Part shown: piece after piece, positions 2,364 through 24,630 of the stretch
How the letters are laid out: each line of letters opens with the position of its first letter
Position numbering within the stretch: position 1 is the first letter of the stretch
Origin: a virus
DNA length: 24,630 nucleotides
Direction: 5' to 3' (one strand)
Virus record (IMG/VR): IMGVR_UViG_3300029955_000134
Span: 1-24,630 of that record
Program-made: the position numbers and the translations under genes
The notes under the pieces: model-generated
Told to the model about the DNA's origin: nothing
Database searches by the model: none
The model's input: only the letters and a program-made list of their open reading frames with translations

Positions 2364-5300
2364 TTAATACAATCCGTTGTAAATCACTCCCACGTTTACG
2401 ACCATGTTTCCCCCGCTGACCGTTGAAAGGTTGGCTCCTGTCGCGGTGAATGTCACGTTCACCGCACCGCCCGGACCAACGTAGGTAGGCGAAGCTGTTG
2501 TGTCGCCTCCTGACATCAGGCTGAATGCGCTCTGATATGAGGTCGTTGAACCTCCACTATTGCCTACTGACATTGTTAGAGTTGTCGGTCCAGTAAATGC
2601 GCTTGTAATGTTCTCGCTGAGCGAACACACGTTCTCACCTTTGGCGAGTTGTATGCCCAGTGGAATCGTCTGAGTGAGGCCCGGGGAAGCTGTGTTCGCC
2701 GCCACCAATACCTGATAGGGAATCTGCTTTTGCACTATCGTGCACGTATTCAAGCGCCCCTGCACTAACTTTATCGCCGCGCTTTCTCCTGATGCCATCT
2801 CAGCGTTCATTGCAGCGGTAAAGTGAACGCAGTCAGAATCGAACCACGTTGCATTGCATGATGACGCTGCTGAGGGATTGTATGTGTTCGGCGTAACTTG
2901 TGTCGCTGCAATCGGATCATTGGCATTGTCGTCTACCGCATCGCCGTTGAATGTCCCTGCCACCCATCCGGAAATAGCATCCGAGTTGAGTGTCTCGCGG
3001 TAGCCCTCCATCGTCGCCGTGAAAGAGCCTCTGGCGACGGATGTAGCATACAAAATTTTCACTCCATTACACGCTGTGTGCAGGTTAGAGGCATAGCTCT
3101 GCAACGATGCGTAGGTCGTTGCGCCCGTCGCGCCGCCTTGAATGTCATTCGTACCAGCGTCAAGAAGGACTGTCTTTGCCACACTTATATTTTGTGTGCA
3201 AAGAGGCGTGATCTCGTTGGGCATATTCGTAACCATAGTTGAAAGTCTCTGGTTATACATTCCCATATTGTTGTACTGGTCGCGGTCCGGCTCTAAACGC
3301 GAAATCTGCCACTCACGCGAAGTCGTGAGCTGCCAATTACCTCCGCTCGGAGGCGATCCAGCCGCATTCGCCATGCGTGAATCTCCTTGATAAGCTAGCC
3401 AGTAAGGTGGGCGCGATTCAATTCCAAAGGTTGTCGCTCCATGTTGTGGCAGAGCAGTCTTCGACATAAAGGCTTCGTTCTGTAAGACAATCGCTGGAGT
3501 GACTGGGACAGTCGTCGGATAGACCACAATACCGAACAGCTTCCACTGCGGCGTTGAGTTTCCAACTCCAGAGAAATAAGAAGTGCCGCCTATCTCTACG
3601 CTTCCTGTGCTTGCCCAGGTCGGACAAGAGGGTAGTGTCGATGTAACCGCAGGGTACAGATAACTCGTTGGCGAGTGTCCATTCACATATGCGGTTGCCG
3701 GAGAAGCTCCATTGCACACAACGGTGAATGAGGAGTTGCCGATCAGGCGATCCGTTGGGATGAGATCGTAGTTATAAAGCGTCGGGTTGCCTATCATGGC
3801 AGGTGCACCGAAGTACGCAGGATACCAACCAAGTCCATTTCCGCTGCTGTCGCCGATAGCCCATTGTTTGTAGATTGAATGCGATAATCCATCAATTGAA
3901 TAAGGCATGATTTGCTCATACCACATCTGGATCGTTCCTGCTCCAGCTAAAACGGCTGCTGGACCAGACAACCATTGTCCGCCAGCAATCGTATTGGTCG
4001 GCGTAAAGATAATCGAACCATCCGCAGACCAAGTGGGCGCATTTCCTCCAGATGCAAAAGTCATGTCATAGTGATTACCGCTCTGATCGTGCAGTACAGT
4101 GCCGCTTCCGTCCATGTAGGGGAGATACAGTGCTTGGTATCCAGGATAAAGTGCCGCACCGAGCAGGTTCTCAGCCCATGAGGTAGCATCGATGATCTGG
4201 CCGCTGCTGTTGGTCCCAACAACTGATTTGCTTGCTGGCACCGCCGCACCGTTCACCTTGCCAACCGTCGTCGCCGATTGCGTGCCCGTAACATCGCCCG
4301 CCAATGAGCCGGTAAAGCCGGCCGCTGTGCCCGTGGTATTCGCGGCATTACTAGGAATATCGCCTGAAACCAGCACCGGTAACTGCGCGTGCGGCAAAGT
4401 CCCCGTCGTCAAATCCGATGCAGACACCGTCACGTTGCTGCTCAAAGCATGGCCATTGACGGTCGTTGATGTACCTACCGCGCCCAGGTTGGCAAGTGCA
4501 CCCGCCGCCGTGGTTGCGCCCGTGCCGCCCGACGCCGGAAGCAATGGCGATCCAAGCGTCTCACTGCCAGCCGAGACGGTGCCTGAGAATGATGCGCTGG
4601 TGCCGGTGAGTGCGCCGGTCAGTGTGCCTCCAGAGAGAGGTAGATAGCTCCCACCTCCAGACCCACAAGCCGCTCCAGCATCTGCTAGTGTGCCCGCTGT
4701 ATCTCCAAACTTTACGCAGTCATTCAGCGTGGTTGTTGTTGGACCCGTTGTAATTCCCGCGCCAGTCCCTGACAATACCTTGCTGCTTGTGATTGTGCTG
4801 GCCGTGGCCGCAATTGGAATCTGTCCTGCTGTCATGCCAGAGATTCCACTGGATGTGTTTATGGCGATAGGGGATTGAGAAGTAACCCTTCCGTTAGAAT
4901 CCGTTGTGATTGCGCAGGTGTGTGAGGAATCTCCGCAGTTTCCCGGTGATGAGTTGACTACCTTCAGTGTTGCGTTTGCCGATCCTGTTCCCGGTCCGGC
5001 AAGAACATCTCCCGTCAACTGCGTTATTCCTCCGCTAACTCCTAAGACTAACTCCTGCTCAATCTCTGTCACCTTATCTAAACCGCTCTCAATATTCGCA
5101 TACATCACAGGCATATATGGCGTGAATTGCGTCAACTGCGTAATTGGTGTAACCCTTTGCAGAACAAGAATCTGCGCAGCGGGGCAGGCTGTGTTCAGTG
5201 TGACAGAGCCGCCATTGGCGTAGGAGTTATTGACTGGAGAAATCGTGTAGGCAGAAGAAGCCAGAACAGTACCGTTCTGCGTCACCGTCATAGCCGCCGC

Positions 5301-5444
5301 CGTGTCAATCGGGAAGGTGAACGGGAAGGGGCCTGTGCTTCCTGTGCAGACGAAAGAAGCGCTAGTAGCGGTGCCGGTTACAGTCGCATGGGCCACGACC
5401 GGAGACAGTAGCAAAGCGCACATCAGAACGATTCTGTTTTTCAT
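2364..5444 (-). CDS. Tail fibre with T7-type N-terminus, SGNH-hydrolase domain and signal peptide (1026 aa)
   Basis: ATG at 5444 follows GAGGAG by nine bases. Residues 1-20 look like a Sec signal peptide ending AHA. Residues 28-135 match the T7 gp17-type attachment domain (PFTFPIDTAA, then GGSVTL and QRVTP, and a helix IESGLDKVTEIEQEL). Residues 145-425 are Gly/Thr/Ser-rich fibre repeats (SGGTLTGALTG; ASGGTGATTAAGALANLGAV). Residues 430-650 resemble a LamG/concanavalin-like domain (DQSGNHYDMTF). Residues 680-895 are an SGNH hydrolase: GDS with Ser689, a block III Gly near 728, GTND at 764-767 and Asp871-x-x-His874. Residues 905-1026 are a beta-rich C-terminal domain. The likely role is receptor binding plus deacetylation or de-esterification of surface glycans. 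The signal peptide is anomalous for a virion fibre. Confidence 0.88.
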   Translation of the reverse strand: MKNRIVLMCALLLSPVVAHATVTGTATSASFVCTGSTGPFPFTFPIDTAAAMTVTQNGTVLASSAYTISPVNNSYANGGSVTLNTACPAAQILVLQRVTPITQLTQFTPYMPVMYANIESGLDKVTEIEQELVLGVSGGITQLTGDVLAGPGTGSANATLKVVNSSPGNCGDSSHTCAITTDSNGRVTSQSPIAINTSSGISGMTAGQIPIAATASTITSSKVLSGTGAGITTGPTTTTLNDCVKFGDTAGTLADAGAACGSGGGSYLPLSGGTLTGALTGTSASFSGTVSAGSETLGSPLLPASGGTGATTAAGALANLGAVGTSTTVNGHALSSNVTVSASDLTTGTLPHAQLPVLVSGDIPSNAANTTGTAAGFTGSLAGDVTGTQSATTVGKVNGAAVPASKSVVGTNSSGQIIDATSWAENLLGAALYPGYQALYLPYMDGSGTVLHDQSGNHYDMTFASGGNAPTWSADGSIIFTPTNTIAGGQWLSGPAAVLAGAGTIQMWYEQIMPYSIDGLSHSIYKQWAIGDSSGNGLGWYPAYFGAPAMIGNPTLYNYDLIPTDRLIGNSSFTVVCNGASPATAYVNGHSPTSYLYPAVTSTLPSCPTWASTGSVEIGGTSYFSGVGNSTPQWKLFGIVVYPTTVPVTPAIVLQNEAFMSKTALPQHGATTFGIESRPPYWLAYQGDSRMANAAGSPPSGGNWQLTTSREWQISRLEPDRDQYNNMGMYNQRLSTMVTNMPNEITPLCTQNISVAKTVLLDAGTNDIQGGATGATTYASLQSYASNLHTACNGVKILYATSVARGSFTATMEGYRETLNSDAISGWVAGTFNGDAVDDNANDPIAATQVTPNTYNPSAASSCNATWFDSDCVHFTAAMNAEMASGESAAIKLVQGRLNTCTIVQKQIPYQVLVAANTASPGLTQTIPLGIQLAKGENVCSLSENITSAFTGPTTLTMSVGNSGGSTTSYQSAFSLMSGGDTTASPTYVGPGGAVNVTFTATGANLSTVSGGNMVVNVGVIYNGLY

Positions 5445-5446
5445 AG

Positions 5447-5515
5447 TCAAAGCTCCTCGATACCCAAATCCATGCAGATGCAGTCCCAAAGGTGCTGCCA
5501 CGAATTGTGTCCCAT
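5447..5515 (-). CDS. Possible 22-residue leader peptide before the fibre gene
   Basis: A short frame starts with ATG at 5515 (peptide MGHNSWQHLWDCICMDLG and four more residues) and ends with TGA two bases before the fibre ATG. GAGGG lies only three bases upstream of the ATG, which is tighter than usual. It fills the 76-base gap between the HELVE protein and the fibre and would couple fibre translation to upstream reading. The Trp/Cys-rich composition is unlike random noise but proves nothing. Confidence 0.25.
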   Translation of the reverse strand: MGHNSWQHLWDCICMDLGIEEL

Positions 5516-5520
5516 AACCC

Positions 5521-5898
5521 TCATAAGCTCATCACTGCCTTGGAGTATTTTTCCCAATCCAAGCCTAACTCTAATGCAATCATACGCTCGATGTTGGTTG
5601 CGAAGAAATGCTCTTTCCGGTAAGGTGCATCGGGATGGTTCCCAGGCTCGGACTCGTCACCCTCTGGCCGGTTCTTCTCGTATTCGATGTCGAAGGCGCT
5701 CACCGCTTCGTCTGTGATTCCGCGCTTGTTGCAGAGCCACACCTCGACAAGCTCATGGATGGCAACAAGGAACGCATAGTCATCATTGCCCATGTCGCTA
5801 ACCGAAATGCGCAGCGATCCTTCGGGAAGGTTTTCCCAATCCCCGCACGTCTCGTAGCGTTGCTCAGAGTGCGGTATCGTTCTCAGTTGAATCTTCAT
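5521..5898 (-). CDS. Small HELVE-motif protein, possible zincin-like (125 aa)
   Basis: The sequence starts MKIQLRTIPHSEQRY and contains SDMGNDDYAFLVAIHELVEVWLC (two parts joined here: SDMGNDDYAFL and VAIHELVEVWLC), with His48, Glu49 and Glu52. Further on is YRKEHFFATNIERM with His97 and Glu104. A helix with HExxE followed by a distant His or Glu is reminiscent of zinc-dependent peptidase helices, but the second His of HExxH is absent. Proteins of this size with the same HELVE pattern recur in phage genomes, to my recollection without known function. ATG at 5898 sits just after GGAGGAG. It begins inside the upstream PurD-like gene and overlaps it by 35 bases, so the two are probably made together. 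Metal binding is a hypothesis. Confidence 0.6.
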   Translation of the reverse strand: MKIQLRTIPHSEQRYETCGDWENLPEGSLRISVSDMGNDDYAFLVAIHELVEVWLCNKRGITDEAVSAFDIEYEKNRPEGDESEPGNHPDAPYRKEHFFATNIERMIALELGLDWEKYSKAVMSL

Positions 5899-7210
5899 AC
5901 TCCTCCACTCGCTTCCCGATGTCAGACCTGTACTTCTGCCCCGCGATTAAAAGATTGTCTTTGATATACTCGATCAACCCCTCGCGCACCTTGGCAATCT
6001 CCTCACCAGTTGCGGTCACGGTCAGAAGGTAGCCGCTCTTGGTTGCGACCTTGTAGCCCTCCTCGTCCTTCTTGAAGTTATAGAGGTGGACATGTTTCTT
6101 TTGGTCTGAATCGAACTCGTCAACAGGTTTCCCATCCTTGAGAATCCAAAGCCGCTCACCGATACTGGTTGCTTCGTCGTCTACGTCGGCCTCTACAGGG
6201 AACGGCTTGGCCGCGACTACGATTACCATGCCCCATCCCTGGAAGAGCGGCACGGGGCGATTCTGGCCTTTGGCGACGGCCTCTATGAGCTTTCCTGCAC
6301 CGCTCTCCATCGCCTCACAGAACTCATAGGCTGTGCTTGGAACGCCGAACCTGCACGTTGGTTCAAGGGCGACGATCTTTCCCTCGTCAGTCACGATGCA
6401 GTTGATGTCGAACACGCCCCGGAATCCGATCTTCTTCAACCTGGCTTTGATAGCAGGGCGGCAGATCATCTCGCGGAACAGTTCGTTTTCTTCTGTGCAT
6501 CCCCAGAACGTCGTGCCCATCTCTCCGGTCGTTTCGCCCGTGTTGCCGTCCGCTTCTTTCTTCTCCTCGAAGTTGAGGAAGCCGGTCACCTTACCCTGCG
6601 CGTCGCGCATCCAATCTGAGCCGTTGAAGAAAGCCGAGGCCGCAACTTCCAGCCCCTCCACTACCTCCATAATGTCAAAGTCGATAGGGCCAAAATGCGA
6701 CTCGTTCCACTTCTTCTTTAGCTCATCCAAGTGGTAGAGCATATCTGAGCCATCATCGAACTTGCCCATGTGGGAGAGAGACTTTGGGGCGTTCCCGTTC
6801 TGTTTGAGAATCCAGCGCCGGCCTGAGTTCGCCTTCACAAACTGACTGGCTGATTCAAAGTCTTTGAAGTTCTTCGACTCAACCTGATCGAATCCAGCCT
6901 CGGCGAACCAATCCTGTCCCGCTTGGCGGTCGTTCTCCAGCCTATCGCCTTCCGTGCATCCGCCGAAAACGGATTCGCCTTTCTCGCGCAACCATTCTTG
7001 CAAGTCGCCAAAGGAGCATGAATCGAATACCCACACGTACCCCTTTCCCATGTAGCGATACCAGTCATCAACGTGTATCAGAATCCCGTCTGCGATCTTG
7101 TCATAGTCTTTATTGGCAACGTGGAACACAACCTCGTGGCCCTCCACATCTTGCAGGTGTATGGCGAGGTCTGCGATCTCTCCGAATTCGGTGTAGAAAA
7201 TGAATTTCAA
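5864..7210 (-). CDS. PurD-like ATP-grasp ligase (448 aa)
   Basis: Length and domain order match phosphoribosylamine-glycine ligase (PurD, GAR synthetase): N-terminal Rossmann-like domain (1-90), ATP-grasp (about 95-320) and C-terminal domain (325-435). Visible landmarks are Lys136 in WILKQNG, EVVEGLEV at 182-189 (ATP-grasp), DGNTGETTGEMG at 221-232 (PurD has D-x-x-TG-x-x-TG-x-MG), EPTCRFG at 283-289 (PurD EFNxRFG) and TVTATG plus YRSDIGKR near 397-434. Differences are notable. The phosphoribosylamine-binding GGREHA loop near the N-terminus is absent, and the metal-binding Asn of EFN is Thr285. It is therefore probably an ATP-dependent carboxylate-amine ligase with another substrate. The start is TTG, supported by GGAGG six bases upstream and a TTGA overlap with the previous stop; the next Met is at residue 54, too late. 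Confidence 0.8.
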   Translation of the reverse strand: MKFIFYTEFGEIADLAIHLQDVEGHEVVFHVANKDYDKIADGILIHVDDWYRYMGKGYVWVFDSCSFGDLQEWLREKGESVFGGCTEGDRLENDRQAGQDWFAEAGFDQVESKNFKDFESASQFVKANSGRRWILKQNGNAPKSLSHMGKFDDGSDMLYHLDELKKKWNESHFGPIDFDIMEVVEGLEVAASAFFNGSDWMRDAQGKVTGFLNFEEKKEADGNTGETTGEMGTTFWGCTEENELFREMICRPAIKARLKKIGFRGVFDINCIVTDEGKIVALEPTCRFGVPSTAYEFCEAMESGAGKLIEAVAKGQNRPVPLFQGWGMVIVVAAKPFPVEADVDDEATSIGERLWILKDGKPVDEFDSDQKKHVHLYNFKKDEEGYKVATKSGYLLTVTATGEEIAKVREGLIEYIKDNLLIAGQKYRSDIGKRVEEYEDSTENDTAL

Positions 7211-10200
7211 CGATAGCCTCCGCGGATGGAGAACTTCCGCCCCTTATTCTTGGTAGGCACGTTCTCCTGCATCCCAGGAACGCTCTTTTCGATGGTCTGC
7301 TCCAGGTTGGTTGGTTTGCGCTGCTTATTCTGCGGATCTTGCATCTGAGCAACCCGGCGCACATCTGGCGGGACAATCAGACTCTCAATCAGATCGTCGA
7401 GGAATAGACCGGCGGAATCAGCCGTGTGCGTAGCCTCTCCCAACCGTGTTGCTTCTTCGAGGAACGGTACTTTCTTGGCCGTGCCCAGCGCCGCCGCCGA
7501 TGCACCCGCAACAAACCCGCCGCTTTTTCCCTTCATCGTATAGGCATCGTTGACCCGCCGCATCGTCGCACCCATCTCGAATACCAGACCAACGGGGGTG
7601 TGTTGAATCCAGGGGGGAACATCTACACCGCCGATAGTGAGTGTTTCAGCCTTCTTTTCCTTCTTTTCATCTCCCGGCTGATAGAATCCTGTCGATTGGA
7701 TGAATCCAGTTGAAGCCCCGGCGTAGTACCCCATTGCCAGCACTGCCAGACCGATGCTGCCTTTTTTCAGAGAGCGCATGATATTGTCGGCTTCATGCCC
7801 GGTCAGATTCTTGAGGCCGTCTTTGGATACCAACACGCGCAAGGCATTAATGCTACCCGTAACTGTGCCTGCCGCAAAAGTTCCCGTCTCGGCAACGATG
7901 TTGGTTGGAACCTTGACAATCGGCAGAACAGTTTTAATCATGAACTCGGTCGATTTTCCGCTCAATCCCTGCGAATGGAATTCACCCATCAGCATCCTGA
8001 ATCCGGTATTGATGAAGTTCTCCTGCATGAAGATGGCTCGGTTTGCGTCGGTATACGCATCCGCAGCCATCGTTGCCTGGACCTTGGGATCGTTGATGTC
8101 GAGATGGTTATCAAGTGCCCATTGCGCCCGCTTCTCCAGAGAGCGGAAGAACTCGGCCCGTTTCGGCAATACTTTGAGAGCGCCGTGCAGATGGCCGAAG
8201 AAGTCCAGTGCCTCTGGCGGCAGTGTTCCCTTTTTCCCGTAGAGGTAGTCGAGAGACGTTTTTCCCGTCTTGACCGCTTCCTTGATGTCCTGATACGTGG
8301 CTTTCTCGAAGAATTGCCCGAATGCCTTAGCCTCTGCCGAAATGTTCAATCCGCCGCCCTCGCGCGGGGCTTTCTCTGCGATGTCAGACAGACCAGGCAT
8401 CTTGGACAGCACTCCTCCGATAAGCTCTTCGATTGGAGTTGTGCCGAATCTCATCATCGCAGCGGTAGTCAGTTTGCCTAGCGTGTTGACGCTCGACAGC
8501 AACACGGCCCGCCGCCACTTCTGAAAGATCGCCGCGCCCTTTTCGAGCGGAGTTCTCGCAGCGAGTTTCTGCTTGTGAATCGCGTCGTCCACCTGCCCCT
8601 TGAGCTTCTCCGACTGCGCTTTCAAGTCCTGAGCCTGCTGGTCGAGGACAGTCTGCCCGCGAGTAGGCTTGGCAAAGTCTCCGGTATCGAGTTGCTTCTG
8701 GAGGTCCGCAATCCTCTTCGTGATACGCGTCTTGTACGCTCGGAGCGCCCTCGTTGCAGGGTCAGCTTTCTCTCTGACTTTCATGCTGTCCAGAGTTTCC
8801 CTAAGGGCATCTCGCCGTGCTTTCAGTGAGGCGGCCTCCTCCGTGTCTGGACCTTGCATCTTCGCCGGAGCGGAAGTGTCCCGTTCCTTAATCCGTCTCT
8901 CTAGTTCGGCGATGCTCTTTTGAAGAGCTTTAGCCCGCGCCGCCTCCTTGGTGCCTCCCTTGTCGATGCTTGCCGATTTCATTTCATCAAACGCTTCGCG
9001 CAGAGAATCGCGTTGCTCTTTCAGGGAATCAAGTGTTTCCGTGTCCGGACCTTGCATTCGCTGAGTAGGAGATAAATCCTTATCCTTGATTCGCCTGTCT
9101 AGTTCGGAAATCGACTTCTCTACAGCCTTTTGCCGCGCCGCTTCTCTCTTCCCACCCTCATCTGTCTTTTCTTCGACAGGCTCTTCTTTCTTCATTGCCT
9201 CATCAAGTTGCTTCCGAAGTTCCTTGACGCGCTCAGACGGCTTGCCGGGGGCTTTGCCCTTCGCCGGTTGCTCTCCAGATTCCGCATCCTCGATAGCAGA
9301 AATGAGTTTGCCCTGCTTCATCGCCTCGCGTAGCTGGACCTGTACTTCATCCTTCGTCCGCTCAGTCGCTTGCCGTCCGTACTGAGAGATGTAATCCCGA
9401 ATCTCCCGCTTGCTGATTCCCCGCTCTTGGAGATTCGAGTGGATTTCGTCTACGATCTGCTCGATTGTCGTCAAACCGTCTTCGATGTGGCTGACTGCCA
9501 ACTTGCCGAATAGCTCGTAGAGTTTGGGGTTGAGCATGGGGTTCGCGCTCAACTGCCCCGTCAACTCCTCATTCAGCTTCTTGTAGAGAATATCCCTCTC
9601 CGCCTTTCGGCTCTCCTTGGTTGCCGTGCGCTTCTCCGTGCGCTCGGATAGCCCCTTGCGTATCTTCTCTACCGCACGCTCCGCTGTCTGCTGTTTCTTC
9701 GTCTCCTCGTAATCGTCGATGCGCTTGTTGGCTTCGTCGAGTTGCTTGGTGAGCGTTTCCAGCGTATTGCGAAGCTCAGGCGATACCTCACCATTAGGGC
9801 TGGCAACACGCGCCCTCTGTAGGACATTGGCAAGCGAGTAGTCTTGCTTAATCATCATGCGACGTGCAGCGAGAGCGCGGCCCGTCTCCGTACCAGACCT
9901 CCGCGCCGCCTCATCGTTCGTGTTCATCGCATCCTCGACTTTAGCGAGTTGCGCTTTGCCCCGCGCCTCCATTGCTTCGTCCCCGGATGCGCGGGCCGCT
10001 TCGATGGTGTTCATGGCGGTTGCGTGTTGGTTCTGGAGCTTCATGCGGTCGTAAATCAAGGCCGCGGCTTCCTCGTCTGTGTGCGGGCGGGGATTGTCGG
10101 CCAACTCTTTAGCCAAAGATCGCGGGTCAATCGTTCCCTCATCGACTGCCTTTTTCCCAGCCTCAAAAGCCGGAGTCTGTCTCGCTTCAACTTCAACTTC

Positions 10201-11301
10201 CGGTAATCCACGCTCGGCACGTTCCGCTTCTGTGACCTCGTTTTTGATGCTTGTCTCGCCTTTGGGAGCGTCGGCAGGCGCTTCGGCTTCCGGTGTCTTG
10301 CCGGGAATACCGCGAAGCTCATTGTCGATCTTGTTCATTACCTCCATCGGGTTGTCTGAAGGTTGCTCCCCAACAGCGCGGCGGGCTGCTTCCGATGCCA
10401 AGTCCGCCGGGTGTACTCCGTCCCTGGCGTACAGGTCCATCGATTTTTCTTGCAAATCGGAAGATGCTTTCTTTGCAAAAGGAAGATTCCCAACCGTAAC
10501 GTGCATCAGGGCCAGCAATGCGGCGTTGCTTGCAAAATCTCGCGCGGTGGGAACCTTCCCCTCAAGCAAACTTCCGACCGTGGTCATCGTGGCAAGCTCC
10601 GCCGCCGTCTTGTAGGCTCGTGCGCCAAAAACCTTTGCTATCGTGCCCTCAGCCAGCGGTGCCGCTTCCCCAGCGAAACTAAATGCCGTTCCGGTCAATG
10701 CGCCTTTGCCGGTCGCCTTGATAACGTCCATTACTTCATCGAACGCAGAGATTTGCTTGCCAGCGTACTTGTCCACAAGCCACTGGCGCAATCCAGCGGT
10801 AAGACCAAACCCACCCGCCCCAGCGCCTACCACGCCGCCTGATATGGTTCCAACGACCGGAAGCTCTGCCGTACCCGCCGCACCGCCAGCAATCATACCT
10901 AGACCGCCGCCAACAAGGTATTCAGGCAAGTCACCAATCATTGTTCCGAATCCTTCGATGAACTTGCTCACTTCATCGTCAGTTTCGAACGGGCCGGAAG
11001 TTCGCCCTCTCAGATACTCTCCAATAATGGAGTCTTGCGTAAGCCCCTTCCAACCCGCCGAAGCGTAGCCTTCAAGCCGAGTGGAGAAATCTTCGTTGAA
11101 CGCATCCCGATTTTCATAGGTGTAACTGGGCGGCGCTCCGGTCATATGGGAGTACACCAGCGCATCTGTAGCCCGCTGCGCTTGATCGTGGTCTAGAGAG
11201 AGGGAAGGAGCAGGTTGATACTGCGTCCAGGGGCCATTGCTGGGCGCAGATGAAGTAGGGGAAGCAACAGGATTCGCGTATTGTTCCCAAGGTCCAGGCA
11301 T
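7207..11301 (-). CDS. Large internal virion (ejection) protein (1364 aa)
   Basis: ATG at 11301 overlaps the upstream TAA (TAATG). The N-terminus carries two copies of a short motif (GPWEQY at 3-8, GPWTQY at 23-28). A Gly/Ala-rich hydrophobic region follows (about 120-175; YLVGGGLGMIAGGAAG), which may insert into membranes. The middle (about 330-860) is highly charged and coiled-coil, with two tandem 66-residue repeats at roughly 717-848. The C-terminal 480 residues are mixed helical, ending in basic KGRKFSIRGGYR. Size, position after tail tubular B and two smaller virion proteins, and composition fit the large podovirus internal proteins that are ejected to form a channel across the envelope (T7 gp16 analogue). 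I see no lytic transglycosylase motif. Family placement is by architecture and order. Confidence 0.72.
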   Translation of the reverse strand: MPGPWEQYANPVASPTSSAPSNGPWTQYQPAPSLSLDHDQAQRATDALVYSHMTGAPPSYTYENRDAFNEDFSTRLEGYASAGWKGLTQDSIIGEYLRGRTSGPFETDDEVSKFIEGFGTMIGDLPEYLVGGGLGMIAGGAAGTAELPVVGTISGGVVGAGAGGFGLTAGLRQWLVDKYAGKQISAFDEVMDVIKATGKGALTGTAFSFAGEAAPLAEGTIAKVFGARAYKTAAELATMTTVGSLLEGKVPTARDFASNAALLALMHVTVGNLPFAKKASSDLQEKSMDLYARDGVHPADLASEAARRAVGEQPSDNPMEVMNKIDNELRGIPGKTPEAEAPADAPKGETSIKNEVTEAERAERGLPEVEVEARQTPAFEAGKKAVDEGTIDPRSLAKELADNPRPHTDEEAAALIYDRMKLQNQHATAMNTIEAARASGDEAMEARGKAQLAKVEDAMNTNDEAARRSGTETGRALAARRMMIKQDYSLANVLQRARVASPNGEVSPELRNTLETLTKQLDEANKRIDDYEETKKQQTAERAVEKIRKGLSERTEKRTATKESRKAERDILYKKLNEELTGQLSANPMLNPKLYELFGKLAVSHIEDGLTTIEQIVDEIHSNLQERGISKREIRDYISQYGRQATERTKDEVQVQLREAMKQGKLISAIEDAESGEQPAKGKAPGKPSERVKELRKQLDEAMKKEEPVEEKTDEGGKREAARQKAVEKSISELDRRIKDKDLSPTQRMQGPDTETLDSLKEQRDSLREAFDEMKSASIDKGGTKEAARAKALQKSIAELERRIKERDTSAPAKMQGPDTEEAASLKARRDALRETLDSMKVREKADPATRALRAYKTRITKRIADLQKQLDTGDFAKPTRGQTVLDQQAQDLKAQSEKLKGQVDDAIHKQKLAARTPLEKGAAIFQKWRRAVLLSSVNTLGKLTTAAMMRFGTTPIEELIGGVLSKMPGLSDIAEKAPREGGGLNISAEAKAFGQFFEKATYQDIKEAVKTGKTSLDYLYGKKGTLPPEALDFFGHLHGALKVLPKRAEFFRSLEKRAQWALDNHLDINDPKVQATMAADAYTDANRAIFMQENFINTGFRMLMGEFHSQGLSGKSTEFMIKTVLPIVKVPTNIVAETGTFAAGTVTGSINALRVLVSKDGLKNLTGHEADNIMRSLKKGSIGLAVLAMGYYAGASTGFIQSTGFYQPGDEKKEKKAETLTIGGVDVPPWIQHTPVGLVFEMGATMRRVNDAYTMKGKSGGFVAGASAAALGTAKKVPFLEEATRLGEATHTADSAGLFLDDLIESLIVPPDVRRVAQMQDPQNKQRKPTNLEQTIEKSVPGMQENVPTKNKGRKFSIRGGYR
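7217..7221 (-). promoter_or_regulatory. Ribosome binding site deciding the TTG start of the PurD-like gene
   Basis: GGAGG lies six bases upstream of TTG at 7210 and inside the end of the preceding internal virion gene. No ATG or GTG in frame nearby would keep the Rossmann strand MKFIFYTEF. It supports translation starting at TTG, coupled to the upstream stop. Confidence 0.7.
8759..9154 (-). repeat. Two tandem 198-base coding repeats in the large internal virion gene
   Basis: Two in-frame copies of a 66-codon unit are spaced exactly 198 bases apart. Each encodes EAARxKAxxKSIxELxRRIK, then MQGPDTE, then SLKxxRDxLRE. A degenerate third helical unit (ITKRIADLQKQLD) follows towards lower coordinates. 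The unit is a charged helical hairpin. Identity is higher at the protein level than at the DNA level, pointing to an old duplication. Confidence 0.8.
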
Positions 11302-13115
11302 TATTTTTTTACCTGCTCCCAATTCGACATCTGGCCAGGATCACCGCCTTTGAATTTGTATCCATCAACTATGGCTCCTACTTCGGGAGCTTGCCGTGCG
11401 GCAGATTCCTGCTTCGCATAAGACTTCATCGTTGTCGGGAAGGCGTTCGTTATGACTTGATTCTCTGCCCATGTACCAATTCTGCTGAAGAATCCCGGTT
11501 GTGCTGTGCCAGAGGCAGCGGTTGGCGTGGCGAGTTGCGGGTACACGATCTGGTCAAGGCGGTTCTTGATGTCCTTCTCGACATGAGGACGAACGGTTTC
11601 ACTGGCAAACTTCAACAGGTCTGTGCCCGTAACCCCCTCTTTTGCCCGTTTGAGCATGGCGATATTGGCCTCGCCCACATCCGAGAGAGTCATAGCACCT
11701 TGATTCGCCGCGTCCTCGAAAATCTTCATTGCAGATTGGAAATTAGGATCTGATTGCGCGGAACGCATCTCGACAACATGTAGAGCGTCGGAATACTTCA
11801 TTTTAGGATTGCTCTTCATCAAATCTGGAATGTCGTTCCTAGTCAGGTATCCAGGCTGTGATCCGAGACGCGCCACAAGTTCGTAACTGTCCTCCGCCGC
11901 CTGCTGCCTTGCCAATGCCCGCTCTTGCATATTTGTTGCGCGTGCTTCTTTTGCGTCTTGCTTCATTACTTTGAGAGAATGATCTGCAACTTCTTGAGGT
12001 ATCCATTTTGGATCGCTCGGATGTAATTCTCTCCTTTGCTTAACTTCGGAAGGAGTCAAAGCTCCACCCTTGGCATCTGTGTTCCCGATCCTGTCGTCAA
12101 GTGAATTGAATATCTTCTGGTTTCTCTCCGCGACAATTCTTTTTTGAAGCACATCCCTCTGCTCGTACTCCTCACGGACGTACTTTTTTACATTGGTGGA
12201 AAGATCAGGATTCTCATCAACCCTCTTGGCTGCTTGCAGATAATCAATTTCTCCGGTTGACTGGTCTTTGAGAGTCGGATCTTTTGCGTCGCTGGAAATT
12301 ACAGCATCTCCTATTTTCGATACGTCAATCCGGTCGGAACGACTCAGAGCCCGTTCGTAGGAAGTAGCAAGCTGATCTTGCATCCTTTCGAGAGCATCGG
12401 GATCGACGTATCCCTTGTCCTCGTATTCTTTCAGCTGAGCCATCTCCGCTTCCATGATTTCAGGAGCGTTCATTGGGTTAGCGGCGTGGTCTACCTCGGT
12501 AGCGATTGTGCGCGATCTGAGGAGTTTCTTAGCCTTTTCACCCTTTTCAGCGCTAATCGATCCGTTCTTCACCATCACATCTGTCTTTGCATCCTGAATA
12601 GCCCAGATGCGCTCCTTGCCGTCAATCGTCGGTTCGGTAGCCGCTTCATTCTCTGTGTGGAGTTGGGAATCAAACAGTTGAGCCTCGTTGTAATCTGCGG
12701 TCAACTGAGCCGATTTTTTATCAATCAGACCGTTAAACTTGTTCGTCTGCCTGACAAGATACGGTTCGATGTGACGCCACAAGTCAGGCCGGTTCCCGTA
12801 TTGCTCGGCATACTTTTCCTGCAATGCGGTAGCGGTGTCTTGCTTTAATTGGTCAGCGTGAGTGTAGTCAGTCCAGTTGGCAAGACCTGATTGCGCTTTC
12901 TCAATATCCGCACCGATTTGATTCTCCGCGCCAAGCAGAATCCCTTCGTCTTGCGCCTTCTTGATTTTCTGGGCAACCTGAAACCCCATATCCGCCACGC
13001 TGCCCATTTGCTCCGCAGCGTTCGCCATTGTCCTGCCTGGTTCACCAGCGATACGGGGGTTCATCTCCGGTGGAGGAGTCAGTGTTGGGGCTACGGCTTG
13101 AGGGATTTCAGGCAT
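11301..13115 (-). CDS. Internal virion protein (604 aa)
   Basis: ATG at 13115 (a TTG one codon earlier is also open) follows AGGTG. The protein has a Pro-rich start (PEIPQAVAPTLTPPPEMNP) and is then almost entirely helical and charged, with motifs such as AEQMGSVADMGFQVAQKIKK. It lacks membrane segments and recognisable catalytic motifs. It lies between a T7 gp14-sized protein and the 1364-residue protein, the same slot as T7 gp15, and its stop overlaps the next start. The expected role is part of the internal core ejected with DNA. The assignment rests on order, size and composition. Confidence 0.68.
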   Translation of the reverse strand: MPEIPQAVAPTLTPPPEMNPRIAGEPGRTMANAAEQMGSVADMGFQVAQKIKKAQDEGILLGAENQIGADIEKAQSGLANWTDYTHADQLKQDTATALQEKYAEQYGNRPDLWRHIEPYLVRQTNKFNGLIDKKSAQLTADYNEAQLFDSQLHTENEAATEPTIDGKERIWAIQDAKTDVMVKNGSISAEKGEKAKKLLRSRTIATEVDHAANPMNAPEIMEAEMAQLKEYEDKGYVDPDALERMQDQLATSYERALSRSDRIDVSKIGDAVISSDAKDPTLKDQSTGEIDYLQAAKRVDENPDLSTNVKKYVREEYEQRDVLQKRIVAERNQKIFNSLDDRIGNTDAKGGALTPSEVKQRRELHPSDPKWIPQEVADHSLKVMKQDAKEARATNMQERALARQQAAEDSYELVARLGSQPGYLTRNDIPDLMKSNPKMKYSDALHVVEMRSAQSDPNFQSAMKIFEDAANQGAMTLSDVGEANIAMLKRAKEGVTGTDLLKFASETVRPHVEKDIKNRLDQIVYPQLATPTAASGTAQPGFFSRIGTWAENQVITNAFPTTMKSYAKQESAARQAPEVGAIVDGYKFKGGDPGQMSNWEQVKK

Positions 13116-13122
13116 CAATCAC

Positions 13123-13614
13123 CTACATTGAATCATACATCGAGTTAGGTGCAGATGGCACCGTTCCGTAAGACGACGAGTTCATTGCGCCAGCGGCCAT
13201 CATTCCAGCCTGCGACAACCCCGAAATAGCTGTGCTGATTCCGCCTATCGTTCCCGACCAAGCCGCCACCTCGCCATAATACTTTTGCAGCGCCGCTTCT
13301 TCCGTGCCGGCCTGAGACTCGCTTTCCTGCTCTACTCCACTCTGCGCGGCGGTATGCGCCATCATTAGCAAGGGAGAGCCGGAAGCAATGTCCACTCCAG
13401 CCCGCGCATAAGCCGTTGCCTGCTTCCCGATGAGGTTGGAATACTTCGCCTCAGAGGTCTGCATTTTCTGCTGCATTTGGTCAAGCGTGACCTGTGCATT
13501 GTAGTCGTAAGCGCCTTTCTGCTCCTGGCCTTGCTCGTACTGGCCGAATCCAGAGGCAAGGCCGCTAAAGGCACTCTCGCCAGCGAAGAGCATCATCAGA
13601 GATTGCGGGTCCAT
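13123..13614 (-). CDS. Small internal virion protein (163 aa)
   Basis: ATG at 13614 overlaps the TGA of tail tubular B (TGATG) and follows GAGGAGG. The protein begins MDPQSLMMLFAGESAFSG, has a Gln-rich helical middle (NAQVTLDQMQQKMQ), then AYARAGVDIASGSPLLMM and a Gly/Ala-rich C-terminal segment (SGTIGGISTAISGLSQAGM). The ARAGVxxxxGSP motif in a 150-200-residue Ala/Gln-rich protein directly after tail tubular B is usual for the small podovirus core protein (T7 gp14-like position), which forms the outer-membrane part of the ejection channel in T7. Function is inferred from family position. Confidence 0.65.
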   Translation of the reverse strand: MDPQSLMMLFAGESAFSGLASGFGQYEQGQEQKGAYDYNAQVTLDQMQQKMQTSEAKYSNLIGKQATAYARAGVDIASGSPLLMMAHTAAQSGVEQESESQAGTEEAALQKYYGEVAAWSGTIGGISTAISGLSQAGMMAAGAMNSSSYGTVPSAPNSMYDSM

Positions 13615-16600
13615 CAGCCCTCCTCGGCCACGGAAAGCCGTGGGGTGACACTTCGCAGCGTGCACGGGAACGGGTCGCTATGCACAATTGTGATTGTCGC
13701 ACCATCTGTCCATTCAGCATCCAAATCGTTGATTACGTTTCCGGTAAACAGAGTTGCCGGACTTCCGGGCGGGAGTGGGTTCGGAGTGCCCTGCGTGTAG
13801 TCGATGTTGTAGAGGTGAGTTGAGTCCGTGCCCACCATGCCGCCAACAGATTCGTACATCGAAAGGTTGACGCGAGTGAACTTCTGCCTCTTGCTTTTCG
13901 AGGTATTCTTTTGATCGCCGAGCACTGGATTCATGGGTTCAATCGTGGATGAGTAGGGAAGCCCGATGGTGACCTGGTTGGCGTAGGAGCCAAAAACAAC
14001 TGTGTCCGCCGTCACAATTCCGGTGTAGATTACCGCCTCATCCCCAACCGCCGTGACGTTCTGGCCCATCAGATAGCTCATCCCGGTGACCTGGTTCGTC
14101 ACCTGCTCAACCGTTCCTCCTCCCGTGTAATCTCCCCATGCGGTTGAGTCGCTGCCTTGAAGCTGGAAGGTATTGCCACTCACGTTGGCCACGGTCCATG
14201 CCTGCAAGGGGTTCGTGTTCACCTGAGTCATGCCCAGCACGCCCGCAATGGCTACCGTCTGCCCATTCACGAGCGTATGACCTGGCGCTGTCACGACGGC
14301 GGGGTTGGCGTTCGTGATCCCGGTGATATTGAACGGCCCCACTCCCTGCCACTGGAGGCCGCAATTCACAAAGAAAGCGTTCGATAACTGGCCGAACAAT
14401 TCCTGCGGCATGAAGTATTCCACGAACCGCTGCGTTACGCCGTTGATGGTGCGGTTGACCACCACCACGATCTGATCTTCCTGATTCTGCCCAGAGATAA
14501 CGGCTACGGACTCAATCAATCCGGCTCCCATATTTACTCGGAACCATGCATACACCTGATCCTGCGTGTTGAAAACCAGACCAATCAACTGACCATCGTT
14601 CCGCACACCCCAGTAAATCGGGTAAGGTTCCATACTAAACGCCGTCTGCGCAATTCCTGACATTGCCGCCGAGGTTCCGATGGTGATGTTGCGATTGAGC
14701 CGAGTCAGATCGGTATTGTCCCACTGGTTCGTTACGAAGTTGTAGGCTAGAAACGTGACAATCCGAGACGACCGGCTAACAAAGATGGCCGAGCCGTTCA
14801 CCACTTGCGGCTGCAACGCGCTTACGCCTTCAGAGCTTTGCTGTAACGCGTTCACGTTGGTTTGACTTAGCGAAGAATTGTTAGACCCGGCCACAATCCA
14901 CACGCCGCCCGATGTGCCGATAACCAGAGCATTAGGTGTTCCCACCATGTTGAGAAGCTGGTTCACCTTATTCGACACGAGGGTATACTGGACGGCGTAA
15001 TCGTCCGCGTTCGGATCACAAATGAAATCAGGGTAGTCGTCTTGCGTAGAACCGTTCATTTGCGTTGGATTGTTATTGCTTCCGCCAACGCAGAGACGTT
15101 CCTGATACAACGCTCCGCAAGCTGGGTAATCTCCAGTCGCCGCGAACATCGCAACCACCTGCACAGCGAACCCGCCGCCTGTGTACTGCTGATAGCTTGA
15201 AGAATCAATGCTCGCCCCGGTGCTGGGGTCTTGAGGGGTAAAACTCCATCCAACCCCGGTCACGGTTGTAGTAGTTCCTGAAGAGTCTGTTACGGAAACG
15301 GTCACTGACCCATAAGTCATTCCTGAGACAAAAAATTCTCCCTCATTCAGACTTACCAGCCCGGAACATTCGTTGATATAAATTCTGCTTCCATCTTGAA
15401 AGGGTTGCGAAGATGGACTTGAAGCCAGCACAATTACGCAAGGATTCGCCTGCGAAATCAAAGTGATGTTCTGGCCGAGCGCGGAGTATCCCGTCTTCAC
15501 CACATCCAGAGTTCCGCGATACGCAGGTTCGCCCGGTTGCTGGCCGGGGAGAGATAGGCTGTACTGCCATGAATTTGCGCTCAACCGCTCAATTATTCCC
15601 GGCGGATAGTTGGGATGGAAAATCCAGAGCACGTCCGCGCTCTGTGTGCTGCAATCGAGAGCGAATAGATCGGTCTCCAAATAGGGAGTGACCAAATCAA
15701 TCGGTTCTTGCACAGCGGCAACAGGCCCCCAATAAGTAGCATTCCACGCTATAGAAAGACCCAATCCGAGAATATTTGTTAAGATAACTGGAAACTGATT
15801 GTATTGATTGGAGGCGACACACTCACCTATCCAATTGAAAGGATATGCGGGAAACTGAAAATCGTATAAGACTGGCAAAGATGTCCACGGGGTTGCATAA
15901 TAGATAGCGTCTGGAGTAACGCACCATGCCGATAAATCCACATATCCGTATGATGGAGAATTCAAGCTACCTAATGCGCGGATCGCTGCCTGAATTGCGC
16001 TGGCGGAGTTATTTGATGCGGTTGTATTTGCCAGTGCTATATTTATAATCTGGTTAGGAGAAACCCCAGACTTGAATACACTCAAAGAGTCGGATGTGTT
16101 TATCGAGATGCTGCCAATTCCCGTCAAGGAACTGACTGGCTCCCCATAAGGGATTGAGATGTAAAGCACTCCCTTTGTTGTATCCTCAGTGCCGGAGATT
16201 CGATCAAACATATACGCAAGATAACTGGAACCGACAAGAACCTTGTTGGTTGAAACGTATGCAGTGGCGGGATTGTAGTTTATTCCCCCAGCGGGGATAA
16301 CGCTCTGCTCAGCCAACCCCAAAGCCCACGAACCTTGTGTCGCGCCTTCCCACACGCGGCACATCCCAGCAGAAAACTCAAGTACTGCACCCTGCTCTGT
16401 CGAGTACTGAAACGGCACAAGACGGCTCTGACCATTGCTGGCCGTCTGCATTATCTCGCTGCCAACCGTCTGCGTTGGCGTGATCGTATAAGCGCCCACG
16501 CCGCCCGTCCCTGTGCCGTAGGCGCTCACGGTGGTACCAGAGGCTACCCCACCCCCCACAATCGTCTGCCCGACCTGTAGAACGCCGTAATTGACCGCTG

Positions 16601-23539: not shown

Positions 23540-24004
23540 CTATTCTCCCGTAACCACTATCGTATCACCGCTTCCATCGCGGCGAGACATCAACTGATCG
23601 GACTCTGCAAAGACTTCATCCTCAGCCTCTTCAACAGTTCCAAGAGCGGTCGGGTAAATCATCGTCATCTCAACCGGCCCATGAGTCCAAAAGAACTGCT
23701 TCCGCCCCGCGCATCCGGGAATGACATTGTATCCGGTCAGCTCAACTCTTTGGTCTCCGATCAACACTGAACAGTCTCCATGAACGATAAGAACAGTTGC
23801 CAACTTGATAAGCGAACCCATCATCTTTGTCCCCGGTTGGAGACGAATGGTTCTTGCATACATTCCGCCGTGGAATAGATGTTCTGTGGCGAGTTCGATC
23901 TGGGGGTAAGAGAGGATGATTTTGTTGATTTCGTTCAGTTGCTCGAGAACGGCTGGCGAAGCCGGGAACATGGCAATCGGTAAAGGTGCCGTCAATGTGC
24001 TCAT
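23540..24004 (-). CDS. Cupin-like phage protein without the usual metal ligands (154 aa)
   Basis: ATG at 24004 overlaps the acetyltransferase TGA (ATGA). Residues 40-120 form a beta-helix-like pattern: HLFHGGMYARTIRLQPGT, then LIVHGDCSVLIGDQRVELTGYNVI, then GRKQFFWTHGPVEMTMIY. This resembles a cupin-like protein common beside terminase genes in podoviruses. To my recollection those relatives carry two His residues before the VxGD turn; here the segment is GSLIKLATVLIVHGD, so both appear lost, while the later His (108) is kept. A negatively charged helix (EEAEDEVFAESD) and an extra tail (about 139-154) follow. The function of the family is unknown, and small-molecule or metal binding is doubtful here. 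Confidence 0.6.
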   Translation of the reverse strand: MSTLTAPLPIAMFPASPAVLEQLNEINKIILSYPQIELATEHLFHGGMYARTIRLQPGTKMMGSLIKLATVLIVHGDCSVLIGDQRVELTGYNVIPGCAGRKQFFWTHGPVEMTMIYPTALGTVEEAEDEVFAESDQLMSRRDGSGDTIVVTGE

Positions 24005-24444
24005 AGCCACCTCGTAAACATGGTATGGCTGGCCTTGCAACCGGGGCGATGGGACAACACCACATCCAAAGGACTTCCTACCCTGGCGGTGTACAGCAGG
24101 GCCACACATCCATTCCTGATCGAGAAGCTCTCGACGGTAGACAGCAGGGCATCTGCGGTGCCAAGTTTCCTGTGAGACGGCAGAGCAAACAGACTTTCTA
24201 TCGTGGCTATTCTCTTTCCATTGTGCGGCATAACGCCTGCAACCACAGAGACAAATCCTACAAGAACATCATCCGAGTATGCGCCAAAGCAGTGAAGCGC
24301 CCCTGAATTCTCCATCGCGGCGTATATCTGGCGCTGTGGGTTGTAGTCGGGCATCACGCAGTCTTTCGAGTAGGCGTCCAACAGTTCTGCCGAGTTGGGA
24401 GCATCGAGAATGTCTGCATAACTGACTGGCTTTATCTCAAGCAT
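24001..24444 (-). CDS. GNAT-family acetyltransferase-like protein (147 aa)
   Basis: The fold pattern is GNAT: an N-terminal helix region, strands with VLVGFVSVVAGV (about 60-71), strand IATIESLFALPSHRKLGTADALL with R92-x-x-G95-x-A97 as the acetyl-CoA pyrophosphate loop, and VALLYTA as strand 5. ATG at 24444 is chosen over one at 24462 because GGAG sits six bases upstream; it overlaps the terminase TGA by eight bases. GNAT genes in this slot after terminase are known in other podoviruses without a proven target. The acetyl acceptor could be a host or phage protein, or a small molecule. Family call good, role unknown. Confidence 0.75.
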   Translation of the reverse strand: MLEIKPVSYADILDAPNSAELLDAYSKDCVMPDYNPQRQIYAAMENSGALHCFGAYSDDVLVGFVSVVAGVMPHNGKRIATIESLFALPSHRKLGTADALLSTVESFSIRNGCVALLYTARVGSPLDVVLSHRPGCKASHTMFTRWL

Positions 24445-24630
24445 TGGCGCTCCGTAACCCATAGCTTAGGGGATTGTAATCCGTTTCGCTTCGTGCCGCT
24501 AGGAATTGAGCGATCAAATCATTCTTCTCGTTCGGCGGTGAGTAAACCGGCTGCTCCAGGCAGAGGTAGCGAACTGTGTCCGCAAAATCCTTATATCCCT
24601 CTTCCGGTTTATCGGTTCCCGCCTTCCACT
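24437..24630 (-). CDS. Terminase large subunit, C-terminal 63 residues (cut by window edge)
   Basis: An open frame enters from beyond base 24630 and ends with TGA at 24437. It reads KPEEGYKDFADTVRYLCLEQP and ends SYGLRSANA. The segment D-K-P-E-E-G-x-x-D-x-x-D-x-x-RY is the usual end of phage large terminases, where the helix after the nuclease domain carries DAxRY. TerL is the ATPase/nuclease motor that packages DNA at the portal. Its position just upstream of the GNAT, small protein and portal genes agrees. Only the tail is visible, so motor and nuclease residues cannot be checked. Confidence 0.72.
   Translation of the reverse strand, partial: WKAGTDKPEEGYKDFADTVRYLCLEQPVYSPPNEKNDLIAQFLAARSETDYNPLSYGLRSANA

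Follow-up and report, generated by a model that had tools for sequence, protein, structure and literature searches.

Why would a gene resembling one of purine biosynthesis lie within the virion operon of a phage, and what would its product join? The question is raised by the IMG/VR virus record IMGVR_UViG_3300029955_000134, of which positions 1 to 24,630 (24,630 nucleotides, hereafter the window) were analyzed. An initial annotation made from the letters had described the product of the ORF at 5864–7210 as a PurD-like ATP-grasp ligase with an altered substrate site. This ORF was confirmed on the minus strand, which had been left unstated, and all the quoted landmarks (K136, EVVEGLEV, DGNTGETTGEMG, EPTCRFG, TVTATG and YRSDIGKR) were found in its translation. 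Comparison of the ligase gene of the window with that of a relative (L002, 88% amino acid identity) gave a dN/dS of about 0.07, indicating that the ORF is a real gene, and a second ligase comparison gave about 0.09 with synonymous sites near saturation; the ligase is under strong purifying selection. The features of the locus are summarized in Table 1.

Table 1. Features of the ligase locus, in positions of the window, with the basis of each assignment.
Feature	Position	Strand	Basis or remark
PurD-like ATP-grasp ligase, 448 aa	5864..7210	-	TTG start at 7210, stop at 5864
Residues 7-14, position of PurD GGREHA, motif absent	7169..7192	-	alignment
K136, ATP-grasp lysine	6803..6805	-	equivalent to E. 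coli PurD K145; 31/31 representatives
E215-x-K217, E-x-K for PurD D-H-K	6560..6568	-	E and K in 31/31 and 79/79
D268, acid at PurD Tyr271 position	6407..6409	-	D in 31/31 viral; Y/F in PurD
EPTCRFG, residues 283-289, PurD EFNxRFG with N to T	6344..6364	-	alignment
HEVE partner, 125 aa, putative zincin-like metalloprotein	5521..5898	-	co-occurrence with ligase; model pLDDT 96.5
HEVE H48-E-L-V-E52 motif, putative metal site	5743..5757	-	H48, E49, E52 invariant in 49 sequences
HEVE H97 to E104, next conserved helix, putative further ligands	5587..5610	-	both invariant in 49 sequences
Overlap TTGA (4 nt), upstream stop/ligase start	7207..7210	-	same NTGA in relatives
Large ejection-type virion protein, 1371 aa (presumed)	7207..11322	-	gene order
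Internal virion protein	13123..13665	-	phrog_418, E 1.8e-5
Fibre-like protein with GDSL-like domain, downstream of the ligase/HEVE pair	2364..5501	-	Lipase_GDSL_2, E 2.3e-4

The ligase gene had been placed between ejection proteins and the fibre. The virion operon was borne out by podovirus-type genes upstream on the same strand, which encode a head-tail adaptor (phrog_332), a tail protein (phrog_376) and an internal virion protein (phrog_418), and what had gone unmentioned is the gene for a protein that we call HEVE, between the ligase and the fibre. The start codon of the HEVE gene falls within the 3' end of the ligase gene, and the fibre-like gene comes next. Overlooked at first, this gene says more than any other feature of the locus. 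Two large ORFs (605 and 1371 aa) directly precede the ligase; they gave no family match above cut-off in Pfam or PHROGs, and judging from gene order they would be ejection-type proteins. The 4-nt overlap suggests translational coupling of the ligase to the 1371-aa gene. The Lipase_GDSL_2 match of the fibre-like protein is under the Pfam gathering score; its GDSL/SGNH hydrolase-like domain spans residues about 706–841, and the protein is possibly a receptor-deacylating fibre. The virion module of the window also contains a GNAT acetyltransferase (phrog_1249, 24001–24462, minus strand), and GNAT-sized ORFs lie between the tail protein and the internal virion proteins in many relatives (for instance, 10834–11280 in MW202796.1). 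The N-termini of the large ejection-type proteins of the window and of three relatives (L066, L062 and L087) each carry a short motif in two copies, which varies by phage (GPWEQY/GPWTQY, SFDDLIPK, GWETIVP and NPFAKY). When the upstream proteins were inspected by eye, no common C-terminal acceptor tail or peptide was seen on the virion proteins neighbouring the ligase.

The family of the ligase was evaluated by profile and structure searches. It matched Pfam GARS_A with 34.5 bits (gathering score 27, E 2.4e-8) and GARS_C below the Pfam cut-off, while TIGR00877 gave 78.8 bits (E 3.6e-22) and its equivalog cut-off of 288 bits was not reached. A profile built from 49 viral ligase relatives matched the PurDs of the PDB with E-values down to 2e-39, and the sole non-PurD ATP-grasp enzyme in that list was D-Ala ligase (E 0.0098). 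The GARS_A, TIGR00877 and PDB-profile scores show that the homology to PurD is far above chance. The AlphaFold (AF2) model (pLDDT 92.2, pTM 0.91) has the full-length four-domain PurD fold, and its 15 best PDB matches in Foldseek were all GAR synthetases (E 1.3e-27 to 1.5e-21, TM 0.68–0.75 by query length), followed by biotin carboxylase (E 3e-16), in agreement with the PurD-fold identity originally proposed. The fold and the conserved K136, E188, K217 and E283 place the protein in the ATP-grasp superfamily, and the profile scores together with the Foldseek matches indicate that it is a descendant or a sister of PurD. Among BFVD structures no full-length PurD-like viral protein was found (best TM by query length 0.43), and in PADLOC no anti-phage defence model matched the ligase or HEVE.

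Active-site residues were compared between 31 representatives of the viral family and nine PurDs, with a wider viral set of 79 sequences. The viral family keeps E92, K136, K143, E188, K217, G225, G229, E283, R287 and G289, and the G-x-x-T-G loop and the C-terminal RxDIG are also common to PurD and the viral ligase. On the other hand, the motifs GGREHA, PGN and GPE, present in the PurDs compared (n = 9), were absent from all viral members, so the loss of GGREHA noticed in the window is a property of the whole family. These motifs serve the phosphoribosylamine (PRA) side of PurD. The change of EFN to EPT noticed in the window likewise holds family-wide, as E[PFW]T (E283, T285, R287 and G289 in 31/31 representatives), and the further changes that had escaped attention are the replacement of the Y-A-G strand by D-x-N and the loss of the RFGDPE acid; residue by residue, PurD D214 is replaced by E, Y271 by D and N288 by T, and E295 is lost. 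An acid in the D-x-N strand, upstream of E283, is typical of many other ATP-grasp enzymes. PurD N288, probably a metal ligand, is Thr in the viral ligase, and because of this its catalytic competence is assumed from the conservation of the other residues.

The ATP residues of Aquifex aeolicus PurD are K103, K143, E185, E192 and K214, and its glycine residues are D212, R287 and E292 (PMC8880213). The viral equivalents are R, K, Q or M, E and K for the former, and Glu, Arg and a lost position for the latter, so that the glycine site differs from that of PurD; the Arg by which PurD holds the carboxylate is retained in the viral family. These residues suggest a ligase that would still activate a carboxylate, with a donor site altered relative to PurD and an amine acceptor other than PRA. 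We consider it highly probable that the viral ligase is an active ATP-dependent ligase, and still more probable that it is not a GAR synthetase. In one relative (L059, 7950–10394), the ligase gene is split by a Hint/LAGLIDADG intein, whose insertion point is exactly EPT|CRFG. Essential catalytic motifs are the places that inteins favour, and the insertion site is consistent with this motif being the ligase active site. Two other ligase copies each contain one in-frame TGA (G014:C1:18072–19394 and G028:C1:7696–8955), which could reflect decay, sequencing error or recoding.

Five IMG/VR scans with ligase or HEVE queries yielded well over 100 viral loci, and only one of 50,697 phage records, MW202796.1, had a recognisable ligase member. 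In this complete phage genome (L004) the ligase gene is located at 42140–43471, where the record has no annotation; the record is labelled Myoviridae, and its head and tail genes look podovirus-like. No cultured member of the ligase family was found. In the genome collection, the first profile scan (A2) found no ligase and the second found it on four contigs of 40–55 kb binned with bacterial MAGs, the same MAGs giving separate weak matches as expected of host PurD or related ATP-grasp genes. Most 'purD' matches among the phage records look bacterial (bacterial contigs or unverified fecal and wastewater scaffolds) and served as PurD comparators only. In an unrooted tree of 62 proteins, PurD formed one clade (100/100, branch 2.28), apart from which the viral ligases fell into several deep lineages. 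One of these, a deep second lineage here called the A7 group (L148, L153–155, L166, L168, L172, L173, L175, L180 and L181), was reached only via its HEVE neighbour; this deepest branch deviates at several residues of the ATP site, E283 (here Asp) among them, and the two A7-group ligases tested had no Pfam match. In the open literature searched, we came across no account of PurD-like ligases encoded within phage virion operons, a relative of which could be mentioned in Iyer 2009, and none of the ligase and HEVE pair.

In the loci examined, the gene-neighbourhood survey that had been proposed for the ligase placed it among the genes of virion morphogenesis, a block within which its position is mobile. 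In most loci it comes directly behind a large same-strand ORF, and an identical 4-nt NTGA stop/start overlap was observed in 63 of 81 distinct loci. In freshwater relatives, the ligase is followed by a short fibre-like protein and usually by a lysozyme-like protein, both recognised by eye. In one phage (L092) it lies between terminase and portal, with the scaffold and the major head protein following, and in another (L200) it is preceded by a large gene with matches resembling injection transglycosylases. The pair of L166-type phages seemingly lies between portal-like and scaffold/capsid-like genes.

HEVE homologues also adjoin divergent ligases. Scanning with HEVE alone retrieved 57 viral records, some of them near-duplicate contigs (54 distinct HEVE sequences). 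The original ligase profile (E < 1e-4) detected a ligase in the locus for 33 of these records, and one profile iteration raised this number to 40, 33 of them within 600 nt. The whole-record search added seven, giving 47 of 57, with two of the record-level matches being short local ones (E about 1e-8 to 1e-9). When only HEVE-positive records of at least 20 kb were counted, 43 of 44 had a ligase, against a baseline of 1/50,697 in phage records; the lone exception (L202) is also the weakest HEVE match. The order of the two genes reverses between phages and the pair still stays together; each deep viral lineage in the tree has it, and in HEVE loci the ligase is the only widely recurrent neighbour. 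HEVE was found neither in the phage record collection nor in 397 further Pseudomonadota genomes. The dependence is one-sided, as several complete-length ligase records of the freshwater type are without HEVE. Since many freshwater ligases lack it, HEVE is not required for every version of the ligase. We regard it as highly likely that HEVE and the ligase form a functional pair.

HEVE gave nothing convincing against Pfam, PHROGs and PDB sequences. In 49 sequences, Y15, T17, G19, D20, H48, E49, E52, D70, P85, P92, Y93, H97 and E104 were invariant. Its model (Table 1) has three strands, a helix with the HExxE motif and a later helix (residues 94–110) bearing H97 and E104. Foldseek returned no match below 0.001, and five of its nine best weak matches were zincin peptidases (SprT, Ste24, PprI, CapP and ACE2). 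The zincin core consists of three strands, an HExxH helix and then a helix with Glu (PMC5512222), whereas the motif of HEVE is HExxE in all 49 sequences. Judging from the model, HEVE may be a zincin-like metalloenzyme, and we hypothesize that it would hold the zincin set of two His and one Glu with their positions exchanged. Two other identities were rejected: a MazG-like nucleotidase, paired with a purine-type ligase as in Z-genomes, does not fit the acidic spacing or the three strands before the motif helix, and the matches to Fe_dep_repr_C (8 of 49 members, best E 0.0024) amount to a short helix resemblance. An annotated 'ubiquitin' of MW202796 (34127–34372), encoded near the ligase and considered as a conjugation partner, is a small four-Cys protein that does not look ubiquitin-like, and nothing visible supports its label.

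Since the ATP machinery is kept, the purine pocket is lost and HEVE is the companion, the ligase and HEVE look like an undescribed, non-purine amide-bond system. The explanation that we favour, tentatively, is that an amide-bond ligase descended from or sister to PurD works late with HEVE, its most likely target being a virion or assembly protein or peptide. The mechanism that we infer, from late expression through catalysis, donor and acceptor or target to the HEVE metal site, would run as follows. Late in infection, the ligase and HEVE would be made from the virion operon, with translation of the ligase probably coupled to that of the ejection-type protein. The ligase would turn a small carboxylate, perhaps an amino acid, into an acyl-phosphate by phosphorylation and pass the acyl group on; the acceptor would be not phosphoribosylamine but an amine of a protein or peptide, probably one of the virion. 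HEVE, as a putative metal-dependent hydrolase, would prepare, expose, trim or reverse the linkage site. A virion or assembly protein or peptide is the most likely target because of the presumed late virion-operon expression and the probable coupling to the ejection-type protein, and the probability that the target is a protein or peptide at all is somewhat below even. A more specific version is doubtful: a phage-exclusive conjugation/deconjugation pair, in which a virion (or host) protein would be linked by the ligase to an amino acid or peptide, which a swapped-ligand zincin would remove or mature.

The same genes could instead act on the host envelope late in infection, for instance by placing an amino acid onto peptidoglycan or a surface glycan and thereby blocking re-adsorption or superinfection. 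There is a precedent, as PMC10580990, citing Iyer 2009, reports the suggestion that the amidoligase and GATase of phage phiEco32 modify the cell wall against superinfection, and the ligase often lies beside fibre-like genes, including the fibre with a GDSL-like domain in the window. However, no glycan or peptidoglycan synthesis gene recurs as a third member in HEVE loci, and other lineages carry the pair between terminase and portal, away from the fibre; we consider envelope modification unlikely. Somewhat less likely still is that the protein is a catalytically reduced PurD relative serving as a structural or chaperone component of the virion, with HEVE as an extra assembly factor. A position in the virion operon, the Thr in place of PurD N288 and the several ATP-site departures of the deepest branch, Asp for E283 among them, would all suit such a role, but the catalytic E, K and R are invariant in the main family, purifying selection is strong and the invariant HExxE of HEVE suggests enzymes.

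Two further explanations keep the ligase close to nucleotides. Joining an amino acid to a nucleotide amine to make a modified nucleotide or DNA-base precursor, by analogy with PurZ of the 2-aminoadenine pathway, would be in keeping with PurD descent, phosphoribosyl amine being the natural acceptor of PurD, and genes for a ribonucleotide reductase and a cytosine methyltransferase are present in MW202796 as well. This is improbable in view of the lost PRA-side motifs, the location of the pair within virion blocks in the loci examined, a HEVE unlike a nucleotidase and the lack of a recurrent nucleotide gene next to the pair; the initial annotation had listed DNA-base precursors among the possible substrates, and no finding favours them, the loci examined having the module among their virion morphogenesis genes. 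Least probable of all, and very unlikely, is that the protein is a GAR synthetase which has diverged and still works, the gene being an auxiliary metabolic one that raises the purine supply. Environmental virome studies do count viral purD in this category (PMC11097641), and the full PurD fold and the conserved ATP residues agree with it. An ordinary-PurD placement in profile searches had been named beforehand as a result that would refute the initial annotation, and the outcome went against ordinary PurD (78.8 of 288 bits with TIGR00877). PurD-invariant substrate motifs are lost family-wide, the gene lies in a virion operon with a HEVE partner, and the annotations of MW202796 contain no other purine genes; with the PRA-side motifs lost and the score below the cut-off, the earlier conclusion that the protein is most likely not a GAR synthetase stands.

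If the preferred explanation of an amide-bond ligase acting late with HEVE is taken further, it predicts an unexpected amide-linked group on virion or host proteins. A conjugation/deconjugation pair, if true, would amount to a system by which phage particles are modified post-translationally, one with a wide occurrence in uncultured phages and hardly any in cultured ones. The reading of viral purD as a purine auxiliary metabolic gene is probably wrong for members of this family. HEVE, a family without a Pfam, PHROG or PDB match, is now linked with an enzyme whose chemistry is known, and the function of HEVE thereby becomes testable; the two genes constitute a compact module kept together across deeply diverged phages.

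Compared with known systems, the ligase is closest to PurD/GAR synthetase (TIGR00877, PF01071 and PF02843), with which profile searches group its family and with which it shares the four domains, the ATP-grasp residues, the catalytic E and R, G-x-x-T-G and RxDIG; it differs from PurD by the absence of GGREHA, PGN and GPE, by E-x-K in place of D-H-K, by its virion operon and by its HEVE partner. The amidoligases of LUZ24- and phiEco32-like phages (Amidoligase_2, COOH-NH2 ligase and ATP-grasp; Iyer 2009) have likewise been proposed to form amide bonds, on substrates that are mostly unknown, but the viral ligase belongs to another family, neither PF12224 nor PF14395 having matched it in Pfam with E up to 1, and has neighbours other than GATase. 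The amidoligase of phage UFV-P2 sits in the early gene block (PMC3890496). The R2K ATP-grasp peptide ligases (PMC4431377), which also occur in caudate phages and are predicted to modify proteins or peptides, appear to be a different ATP-grasp clade, without a described HEVE partner or virion-operon coupling. HEVE resembles zincin-like metallopeptidases (SprT, IrrE/M78 and the phage polyvalent-protein MPTase; PMC5512222) in its three strands, its HE-x-x- helix and a later helix with an acid or His, but it has HExxE and a later His where zincins have HExxH and Glu, with no significant sequence or fold match. The inference of a ligase other than PurD is well supported, and together with HEVE it looks like an undescribed two-gene phage module.
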